Assembly: GCA_007118565.1 (NCBI GenBank) | Contig: SKRI01000005.1 | Coordinates: 1-41,445 of the forward strand | Direction of reading: 5' to 3' | DNA from: Gemmatimonadota bacterium | GTDB lineage: Bacteria > Gemmatimonadota > Gemmatimonadetes > Longimicrobiales > Longimicrobiaceae | DNA length: 41,445 nt | Shown: positions 36,397-40,475 of the stretch, piece by piece | How positions within the stretch are numbered: the stretch's first letter is position 1 | Layout: each line of letters starts with the position of its first letter | Notes under the pieces: generated by a model | Seen by the model: the letters and a program-made list of their open reading frames with translations, nothing else | Told to the model about the DNA's origin: nothing | The model's database searches: none | Made by a program: the position numbers and the translations under genes

Positions 36397-37033
36397 CGTC
36401 ACCCATTCCCTGCTTCACGTTCTCGACTTTAGGCCCGTCCGGCGATCTGCGGCGTCCGATCCTCGGCTCCACTCCCCGAAGGATTCGGCCGATGTTCGCC
36501 CGGTGCGCCACGACCACGAAGAGGGAGACGGCGCAGCCCAGCACCACGACCGGCACGCGGGTCTCCGTGGTGAGGAGCGCCGCGGCCAGTGTCAGCGCGG
36601 CGGTAATCGAGGCCAGCGACACGGTCCGCCACACCGCAAGCGCCCCGAGCCAAGCCAGGAGCGCCACCCCCACCGCCGTGGGGGAAAGGGCAAGGAATAC
36701 GCCGGCCGCCGTGGCAACCCCCTTGCCACCGCGAAAGCCGAGATACACCGGGAAGATGTGGCCCACGATCGCAGCGGCGCCGTAGGCGAGCGTCCACCCC
36801 CAAGGCGCTCCGTCCCACAGTCCGAAGAGGAAGACCGGGATGAACCCCTTGACCAGGTCGAACAGGAGGACCGGAACCGCGATCCCCGCTCCGAGGACGC
36901 GGAAGGTGTTGGTGGCGCCGAGATTTCCACTCCCGTGCTCGCGAAGGTCGATGCCCCGCGCCCGTCCCGCCAGGTACGCGCTCGGTAGCGCCCCGATCAG
37001 ATAGCTCGCCACCAGGAAGAGCGCGGGGCTCAT
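36386..37033 (-). CDS. plsY: Acyl-phosphate:glycerol-3-phosphate acyltransferase
   Basis: A 215-aa membrane protein carrying out the first acylation of phospholipid synthesis with acyl-phosphate as donor. The three conserved loops are visible: LREHGSGNLGATNTFRVLG, FPVYLGFRGGKGVATAAGV, and VVAHRANIGRILRG, with DLVKGFIPV between. The C-terminal ~20 residues are a polar tail. It starts with a 4-nt overlap (ATGA) on der and ends inside the start of gpsA, so substrate supply and use are encoded side by side. Confidence 0.96.
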   Translation of the reverse strand: MSPALFLVASYLIGALPSAYLAGRARGIDLREHGSGNLGATNTFRVLGAGIAVPVLLFDLVKGFIPVFLFGLWDGAPWGWTLAYGAAAIVGHIFPVYLGFRGGKGVATAAGVFLALSPTAVGVALLAWLGALAVWRTVSLASITAALTLAAALLTTETRVPVVVLGCAVSLFVVVAHRANIGRILRGVEPRIGRRRSPDGPKVENVKQGMGDDDG

Positions 37034-38358
37034 TCCTCGCCGCGGCGGTGCCGAAGGCGGATCCGAAGGGGAACGCCGCGGAACGTCCAGGCGCGACGGA
37101 AGCCGTTGTGGAGGTAGCGCTGGTAGGCATCCGTCACCGCCTCCGGGAGATTCGACCAGAGGACGAACTCAGGCGGGCTATTCGCCACCTGCGTCCCGTA
37201 GTAGAAGCGGACCTCGCGTCCTCCGGAGTGGGGAGGCCGCACCCGCCTCACCAGGTCACCCAGCACCTCGTTCACCTCGTGCGTGGGAATGCGGCGCGCC
37301 CGCTCCTCCGCGACCTCGAGGATCAGGGGAAGCACGTTCCGCACGCGCTGGCCCGAGAGCGCGCTGGTGAAGAGCACCGGCACCCACTGGAAGAAGGGGA
37401 CGCGGTCGCTCAGCGACTTCTCGAAGCGGGGGGCGGTCATCGTCTCCTTCTCCACCAGGTCCCACTTGTTCGCCACCACGATGAGGCCACACCCCGCCTT
37501 CCACGCCCGCTCCGCGATCCGGATGTCCTGGTGGTGCATCGGCTCGGTCGCGTCCATGAGGAGGACGCAGACGTCGGCGCGCTCGATGGCGTCCTCCGTT
37601 CGGAGGGCGCTGTAATACTCGACCCGCTCGTCGATGCGGGCCTGCCGCCGCAGACCGGCGGTGTCCACGAAGACCATCTCCCGGCCGTGGTATCGGAACG
37701 GGGTGTCGATCGAATCCCGGGTGGTACCGGCGGTCTCGGAGACGACCAGTCGGTCCTCTCCCAGAAGGCGGTTCACGAAGCTCGACTTCCCCACATTGGG
37801 CTTGCCGATCACGGCCACGCGAAGGGTATCGTCACCCTCCTCGTCGGGAGGCGATTCAGGGAGATGGTCCACGATGGCGTCGAGCACGTCTCCGCTTCCC
37901 TTCCCGCTCGCGCTGCTAACTGGAAAGGGCTCGCCGAGACCCATCTCCCAGAACTCGTGATGCCCGGTCGCAGCGTCGCTCCCCAGGTTGTCGATCTTGT
38001 TGACCAATAGGACCGTCGGCCGCCCGGAGCGGCGTAGCCGCTGGGCGATGCGGTAGTCGAGCGGGTGCGGCCCCGCCTTGCCGTCCACCATCTGGACGAC
38101 GACGTCGGCCTCCTCGATGGCGGTCTCCACCTGCGTGCGGATGAGCCGGTCCATCGGCTCGTCCGACCCCTCCACCATTCCGCCGGTGTCGACCACGTAG
38201 AAGGCGCGCCCCTGCCACTCCGCGCGGGAGAAGTTCCGGTCGCGCGTAACGCCGGGGCGGTCCTCCACGATCGCGATCCGTTTTCCGAGGACGCGATTGA
38301 AGAACGTCGATTTGCCGACATTGGGACGCCCCACCACTGCGACGACGGGTAGCTTCAC
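37030..38358 (-). CDS. der: Ribosome biogenesis GTPase Der (EngA)
   Basis: A 442-aa double GTPase required for 50S subunit assembly. G domain 1: [17 protein letters not shown] and NKID. G domain 2: [21 protein letters not shown] and NKWD. A KH-like domain (about 355-440, ending [14 protein letters not shown]) binds rRNA. The linker between the domains is acidic ([11 protein letters not shown]). It heads the der-plsY-gpsA-merR run. A hairpin-prone stretch (38383-38411, GTCGGGC...GCCCGAC) lies just upstream, between it and the zinc-finger gene, and may attenuate readthrough. Confidence 0.97.
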
Positions 38359-38436
38359 GATCTGGGAATGACTGGAGATGAGGTCGGGCGGAGCCGCCCG
38401 GGCAGCCCGACAATATCCCGCTTCAGCAGCCGGACG

Positions 38437-38970
38437 TCAAACCGGGGAACCTGGCTCCGGCAGCTCTCCGCACCACTCGCACTCCCGCGATCCCGGCGGC
38501 AGGAGCTCATCGCAGAGGGGACACCGGGCGGTTCCCGAGCTTCCCGGATCGACGTGGCCCAGCACCTCCCGCGCCCGCAGGAAGTGGGACGCCGGAACCA
38601 GGACGCGAATCACCGCGAGCTCGCCGTGCGTGACGACGTACAGGTGGTCCTTCTGGGAGAAGACGTGCGCGGGTATTCCCTCGGCGGACAGCCTGGTTTG
38701 GACGACGCCGGCATCGAACTCGTCTCCCGCGCCGTGAACCTGGGTCCACCCCTCGATCATCGGAATCTCGCTGTGCTCGCGACACCGGCTATATCCGCGG
38801 CTCGCCCGGTCACACGCAGCGCAAAGGGGGATCCGGCAGACAACGCACCGCGCCCGCGCGGTCCGCTCCGGGTGCCTGTTACAGGCCCGCGTCTCCGTGA
38901 GCAGACCGCATACGGAGCATGCGTCGGCTTCGTTGAGGCGGGAGCCGCACCGACTGCAACGGTTCGGAAT
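38437..38970 (-). CDS. Zinc-ribbon/B-box/DUF2007 protein, apparent AUU start
   Basis: About 177 aa when read from the ATT at 38970. The first conventional start in this frame is the ATG at 38760 (107-aa product). The 70 codons before that ATG are open and encode clear zinc modules: CSRC...CSVC (residues 5-21), then a B-box-like array C-x2-H...CVVC...CAAC...CREH (about 30-66). An in-frame TGA lies only one codon upstream of the ATT, and GAGG with 6-nt spacing precedes it. No ATG, GTG or TTG occurs between, so AUU initiation, as known for infC, is the best explanation. After residue 71 comes a DUF2007-like domain (DAGVVQTRLSAEGIPAHVF, VLVPASHFLRAREVL), then a last CPLC...CEWC ribbon. Probably a protein-interaction or regulatory factor; the function is unknown. 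Confidence 0.72.
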   Translation of the reverse strand: MPNRCSRCGSRLNEADACSVCGLLTETRACNRHPERTARARCVVCRIPLCAACDRASRGYSRCREHSEIPMIEGWTQVHGAGDEFDAGVVQTRLSAEGIPAHVFSQKDHLYVVTHGELAVIRVLVPASHFLRAREVLGHVDPGSSGTARCPLCDELLPPGSRECEWCGELPEPGSPV

Positions 38971-39008
38971 ACGTCACCTCGTCTGATTTATGGATCTGGC
39001 AGAGACGA

Positions 39009-39042
39009 AACGGGGGGCGGCCCGCTCGGACCGCCCCCCGTT
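39009..39042 (-). terminator. Terminator after the TPR lipoprotein gene
   Basis: A perfect 12-bp stem (AACGGGGGGCGG with its complement) and a 10-nt loop, 24 nt after the stop on the minus strand, followed by TCGTCTC. It separates the TPR gene from the zinc-finger gene. Confidence 0.7.
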
Positions 39043-39065
39043 GCTAGTGCACGACTGCGGGAGGG

Positions 39066-40475
39066 CTACAGGACCTCGTAGCGATACCCGGTGGCCCGCT
39101 CCGTGGTGGGCATGCTCACCTGCAGGTTTGTGGTCTCACCCTCGGCCGGGGCGTTCACCGTAACGGTCTCCGTGCCGAGCTGGCCGGACTCGCCGTAGAA
39201 GGTGAAGCGCAGCTGGATGGGCGTCCCCGCCGAGGCCGCGTTCCCCTCGACGATGCCCTGTACCTGGGCGATGTCCTGCGTGGCGTCGAGCTGTATGTTG
39301 TCCACCGCGACGGGCAGCTCCTCAGCCCGTTCCGCCCACACCAGCGCGCGATCGGTCTGTCCGAGATCACGGTACGATCCAACGATCAGCAGGTGGACGT
39401 GGCGGTTGAGCGGATCCAGCTCGAGCGTCTGCTCTCCGACCGGAATCAGCTCCTCCCACGCTTCCTCGGCGAATAGCGCATTGGTCCGGAAGTACCAGGC
39501 GTCCCGGTTGTTCGGGGCCATCTCAGTGACGCGCTCGAAGGCGCGGGCGGCCCGCGCGAACTGATCCGACTGGTACAGCCCCACACCTGCCTCGAAGAGC
39601 GCATGCGGCTCCACGCCCGGCGCCTCGAGAAGCTCCTCGTAGATCTCGAGCGCCTCGGCGTCACGACCCATCTGGCCGAGAATCAGAGCGAGCGTGGTCC
39701 GCGCCTGGACGTCGTCCGGGTCGCGCTCCACATGCTCCCGGTAGATCTGCTCCGCCTCCTCGTACTGGCCGGTCCGGGCCAGCAGCTGACCGAGCGTCTG
39801 GAGGGCCTGGTCACGGGATGCCTGCCGCTCCTCGATCTCCTCCTCTTCGAGATCCCGGATCATCGGGCGCTCGACGGACGCGACGGCCTCGCGGAACATC
39901 TCGATGGCCCGCTCGTCCTGACCATCCTGGGCGTAGATGAACCCGAGGTTGGCGAATGCCTGCGGGTGCCTGTCGAAGATTGTGGCCGCCCCTTCCCAGA
40001 GCTCACGCGCCCGCTCGATGTCACCGGCGTTGTATGCCTCGATACCCTGGTTCAGCGCCTGCACCCAGGCCATCTCCCGGGCCGGCTCGATCTCGAGCTC
40101 GTAGGCCGGGTAAAGCTCCTGGGCGCGATCCCACACCCGGTCCGCCTCCTCGTACTCGTCGACCCCGACGTGGCCGATGCCGGCGAGCCAGTAGCCCTGC
40201 GGGTTCTCCGGATCATCCTCCACCGCCTCCAGGGCGGCGTTGAGACCCCGACGGTAGAGGTCGCGAGCCTCCTGGCCCTCGGCCGCCTCGGCCTGGGCAA
40301 GGAAGAGGGTGGCCGTCGTCGTCTCCGCGGTCTCGCGCGGAGTCACGCCTTCGGGGTACGGCTCACCGGTGATCGGCGAGACATCCGGGACCCGCTCCAT
40401 GGCAGGTCCGCAGGCCGCCACGAGCACGGCGAGAACCGCGAGAGAGGCCATCTGAGAACGAACGTTCATTGTCAT
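39066..40475 (-). CDS. TPR-repeat lipoprotein
   Basis: A 469-aa protein with a lipobox VAAC (C22) and then about ten tetratricopeptide-like units from residue 70 to 400, for example NPQGYWLAGIGHVGVDEYEEADRVWDRA, HPQAFANLGFIYAQDGQDERAIEMFREA, TLGQLLARTGQYEEAEQIYREHVERDPDD and DAWYFRTNALFAEEAWEELIPVGEQTLELDP. The last ~65 residues are a beta-rich module (IQLRFTFYGESGQLGTETVTVNAP). It is probably a periplasmic scaffold in envelope assembly. AGGAAAG supports the ATG at 40475. A hairpin separates it from larC, and a strong terminator ends it. Confidence 0.88.
   Translation of the reverse strand: MTMNVRSQMASLAVLAVLVAACGPAMERVPDVSPITGEPYPEGVTPRETAETTTATLFLAQAEAAEGQEARDLYRRGLNAALEAVEDDPENPQGYWLAGIGHVGVDEYEEADRVWDRAQELYPAYELEIEPAREMAWVQALNQGIEAYNAGDIERARELWEGAATIFDRHPQAFANLGFIYAQDGQDERAIEMFREAVASVERPMIRDLEEEEIEERQASRDQALQTLGQLLARTGQYEEAEQIYREHVERDPDDVQARTTLALILGQMGRDAEALEIYEELLEAPGVEPHALFEAGVGLYQSDQFARAARAFERVTEMAPNNRDAWYFRTNALFAEEAWEELIPVGEQTLELDPLNRHVHLLIVGSYRDLGQTDRALVWAERAEELPVAVDNIQLDATQDIAQVQGIVEGNAASAGTPIQLRFTFYGESGQLGTETVTVNAPAEGETTNLQVSMPTTERATGYRYEVL

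Follow-up and report, generated by a model that had tools for sequence, protein, structure and literature searches.

A gene for a 177-residue zinc-binding DUF2007 protein lies on the minus strand of the analysed stretch of Gemmatimonadota DNA (the window, 41,445 nucleotides in its full length), at positions 38437–38970, and its translation probably starts at an AUU codon; we put the probability of this reading at about 0.8. Initiation of the full-length protein at AUU, as a sequence-only reading of the same DNA had proposed, is well supported by the position of the ATT, the Shine–Dalgarno (SD) sequence in front of it, the conserved zinc ligands of the N-terminal region and the AUC starts found elsewhere in the genome. 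The gene itself is defined by its open frame, 31 aligned orthologues, Pfam matches and an AlphaFold2 model, and encodes a zinc ribbon, a B-box-like module, a DUF2007 domain and a second zinc ribbon, in that order.

The frame is open throughout, comprising 178 codons including the TGA stop (38437–38439). An in-frame TGA at 38974–38976, which overlaps the SD, bars any start farther upstream, and the codons that follow it are CGT ATT CCG AAC CGT TGC. Because just CGT-ATT-CCG-AAC-CGT separate this TGA from the first cysteine, the ATT (38968–38970) is the sole near-cognate start; no other codon of the set lies within a single mismatch of what the initiator tRNA reads. The ATT sits four codons before the first conserved Cys, so that the I-P-N-R-C terminus would be read as M-P-N-R-C. 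No ATG, GTG or TTG occurs in frame between the upstream TGA and an internal ATG at 38758–38760, which is the first ATG and the sole canonical start before the DUF2007 domain. The conserved protein thus has no canonical codon from which it could start, leaving a non-canonical one of the AUU/AUC/AUA type. Coordinates, frame, architecture and the status of the internal ATG as the only normal start had all been read correctly from the sequence, as rechecking of the open frame and the domains confirmed.

The ATT is preceded, in the arrangement GAGGTGA-CGT-ATT, by an extended SD (GAGGTGA, 38974–38980, minus strand) that ends 3 nt upstream (6 nt counted from GAGG), matches seven contiguous bases of AAGGAGGTGA, the anti-SD complement, and forms a predicted duplex of about −10.2 kcal/mol. 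The element is stronger than the GAGG at 6 nt first noticed there. Across about 0.83 Mb of the source genome, a seven-base match at a spacing of 4–8 precedes 13 of 4705 ATT triplets (0.28%), and an SD at least as stable as −10 kcal/mol stands before about 14% of the predicted canonical starts. The near-cognate codon is properly spaced behind a strong, extended SD.

The 70 codons between the ATT and the internal ATG (38761–38970, minus strand) encode a zinc ribbon (C5, C8, C18 and C21) and the B-box-like module (C30, C42, C45, C50, C63 and H66). In an alignment of 32 rows (the window protein and 31 orthologues, to which it is 33–46% identical) each of these ten Cys and His ligands is conserved in 90% or more of the rows, and the N-terminal part is modelled by AlphaFold2 with a pLDDT of about 89–98, the mean for the whole model being 86.5. 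The codon-usage score over the segment is −4.1, owing to its richness in Cys and Arg, and is by itself no proof of coding. Orthology nevertheless shows that the first 70 codons are coding, and the claim that they specify two zinc-binding modules holds through ligand conservation, codon statistics aside.

Of the domains named in the sequence-only reading, DUF2007 is above its Pfam cutoff (PF09413, residues 77–137; E = 6.6e-6, 26.6 bits against 25.7) and matches 32 of 32 rows at E ≤ 0.01. The B-box falls just below (PF00643, zf-B_box; E = 9.1e-5, 23.0 bits against 24.1, with 17 of 32 rows matched at E ≤ 0.01), and because this cutoff is missed the second module is called B-box-like only. The C-terminal ribbon gives a weak Pfam match in the window protein, but zinc-ribbon models match 24–26 of the 32 family members. 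NCBIfam gave no match for the window protein, and Foldseek matched the AlphaFold2 model to no PDB entry at E ≤ 1e-3; the model weakly resembles the solved 2hfv fold. The protein thus shares residues 77–137 with the DUF2007 proteins of PF09413 but differs in that this domain is flanked by a zinc ribbon, a B-box-like module and a C-terminal ribbon. The combination of zinc modules and DUF2007 suggests a putative nucleic-acid- or protein-binding adaptor.

Of 21 Longimicrobiaceae genomes, 19 have a relative (counting the source genome, and one genome, G003, that has a short form only); outside this family, relatives occur in another family of the order and in a third one of the class. A search of contigs with the window protein as query returned no relative, and one with a Longimicrobium orthologue returned three. 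Orthologues with simple N-termini (such as MPVC, MPRC, MTEC or MNC) start shortly before the first Cys of the first zinc module, like the ATT here. The starts chosen in 33 orthologues are ATG in 21, TTG in 9 (all in one genus, placed with Longimicrobium) and GTG in 3, and AUU in none. Comparison of the upstream regions, which had been proposed as a check, thus places normal starts near the same position. This is not the pattern of a conserved, regulatory non-AUG start such as those of infC or ccpN, and the suggestion that this gene is under initiation-level control of its own is not borne out by the orthologues.

Since the AUU is not conserved, either it arose as a change in this lineage or it is an error. 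Were the true codon ATG, with the T arising from a sequencing or assembly error or from a minority strain variant, the gene would be an ordinary one beginning MPNRCSRCG: one substitution gives a standard start codon with an optimal SD in front of it, the orthologues all lack AUU, and the assembly is a draft of 306 contigs. A consensus error at any one given base is rare, however, and because three other genes of the source genome also start at ATC, one of these starts being found in a second genus too and that of infC being shared by every relative examined, we regard such an error as unlikely. The AUU of this Longimicrobiaceae assembly seems to have arisen within its own lineage. The doubt that remains about it comes from the lack of an orthologue with AUU, the reliance on a single draft assembly and the rarity of the switch elsewhere, an AUG-to-AUU change having been recorded for 1 of 61,358 ancestral AUG starts in other bacteria (PMC5622118).

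In at least three further genes of the source bacterium the normal start codon seems to be missing, with ATC in its place: infC, an SSS-type transporter and an NhaC-like antiporter. The infC gene (L046 and L139, contig C182) starts at ATC, a canonical start codon being absent, and in the 30 loci examined infC has ATC or ATA at the start position. The other two turned up when 30% of the source genome was sampled and are intact genes with no canonical start where homology begins. The SSS-type transporter gene (L093, contig C297, 2499–4355, minus strand) lacks ATG, GTG and TTG at its conserved N-terminus, where GGAGGTCCTG is followed by ATC and most orthologues have ATG. The NhaC-like gene (L131, contig C114, 9441–10853, minus strand) has an apparent ATC start, as does its orthologue in a different genus (genome G002, genus g3; L178, contig C96), where the ATC is preceded by GGAGGCCGGT, including GGAGG, and the 169 open upstream codons contain no canonical codon.

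The scan for start-less genes covered 0.88 Mb of the source genome, set against 0.4 Mb from a relative with a complete genome (G022). It recovered prfB, with its programmed frameshift site CTTTGAC (L094, about 1530–1540, contig C298), as a positive control, and therefore detects real exceptions; because antisense false positives dominate it, no rate of non-canonical starts is claimed. Any enrichment of ATT or ATC after an SD across all start-less open stretches was swamped by noise. A CoA-transferase gene (L080) has an ATC without an SD. A P-type ATPase fragment (L119) shows an ATC after an SD of the AAGGAG type, but this gene is broken and was set aside.

The internal ATG could in principle give a second product, a 107-residue protein, as the sequence-only reading had allowed. 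Its SD is weak (−3.6 kcal/mol), and relatives mostly have V, I or M at this position inside the chain, where it is not a conserved start; conservation lends no support to a second product, nor to gene-specific regulation. A natural short orthologue that lacks both N-terminal zinc modules does exist in G003 (L045, 2504–2815), with its start ATG aligned to the internal ATG of the window and a better SD (−7.4 against −3.6). The short form can thus exist, and to that extent the suggestion stands; the long frame of the window is nevertheless intact. That only the 107-residue form is made, the zinc modules being a relic, would account for the internal ATG being the sole canonical start and for the G003 gene, but ten zinc ligands persist without a stop or frameshift at an orthologue identity of merely 33–46%, which, together with the weak SD and the unconserved position of that ATG, makes it very improbable. 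Also very improbable is initiation at a GTG that lies in a different frame and overlaps the SD (GAG-GTG-ACG), with either a subsequent shift to reach the zinc frame or read-through of the TGA, since no SD is properly spaced for that GTG and the shift would have to fall within about six codons, no slippery motif being seen. The known shift motif CTTTGAC did turn up at prfB once the scan for start-less genes had flagged that gene.

The gene lies between two conserved neighbours on the same strand, a TPR-repeat gene upstream (39066–40475) and der, encoding the EngA GTPase, downstream (37030–38358). Among loci of sufficient length, most have the TPR gene upstream; der follows directly in Longimicrobiaceae, and in the other two families most members have it about 1.3 kb farther on. 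A strong GC-rich hairpin with a long stem (39003–39040, minus strand; z = −3.1 for the fold of 38930–39050) lies after the TPR gene and just upstream of the AUU leader. It is probably the terminator of the TPR gene, although a strict terminator scan did not call it. In one orthologous locus (L039, 1180–1230; G167) about 7 nt separate the end of a terminator-like hairpin with a T-run from the GTG start, so expression of that orthologue has to pass through the hairpin region or arise inside it. Two orthologues of family f4 (L035 in G184 and L037 in G163) lack any canonical start ahead of the zinc ribbon; these two and L041 share an in-frame CTG, part of a CTGA that overlaps the stop of the TPR gene, and CUG or coupled initiation is possibly used in L035 and L037. 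At the end of the zinc gene, a promoter-like TTGACG-17-GATATT occurs at 38412–38440 on the minus strand, and it is possible that a separate promoter serves der, plsY and gpsA.

An AUU start is a known, uncommon means of keeping a protein scarce. We infer that in the cell the AUU would be read by the initiator fMet-tRNA, aided by the seven-base SD; the mismatch at the third codon position would make initiation inefficient and probably sensitive to IF3, and the full-length protein would be made in small amounts. Non-AUG starts are familiar from infC, which has AUU in Escherichia coli, AUC in Streptomyces and AUA in Staphylococcus aureus, and which is autoregulated by its product, IF3. The window gene resembles it in an AUU-type start read by the initiator tRNA, and the infC of the source genome itself has ATC; it differs in that nothing suggests that the window protein acts on its own initiation.

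A closer parallel in form is S. aureus cvfC1, which has an AUU start, an extended SD and a 61-residue putative zinc-finger protein, and yields about 10% of the AUG reporter (PMC13009471). The two share the AUU, an extended SD close by and a small protein with a putative zinc finger, but the proteins are different, and the AUU of cvfC1 is conserved and was tested in vivo, whereas that of the window is not conserved and is predicted from sequence. Streptomyces sigR, with a GTC start, is repressed by IF3 (PMC5472188). The parallel lies in a non-canonical start codon that keeps expression low, but the codon is GTC rather than AUU, the product is a sigma factor, and the IF3 effect was established by experiment there and is predicted here.

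AUU starts outside infC are rarely documented in nature, and gene callers limited to ATG, GTG and TTG would truncate the protein described here, dropping two of its zinc modules. A wider pattern, in which AUU and AUC starts are recurrent in Longimicrobiaceae and the infC, SSS-type, NhaC-like and zinc/DUF2007 genes form a translational regulon jointly tuned by the level of IF3, we consider improbable. If such starts do prove recurrent in the family, genuine N-termini would be escaping the start-codon rules by which Gemmatimonadota are annotated, and a link between IF3 and the control of several genes could be tested directly.
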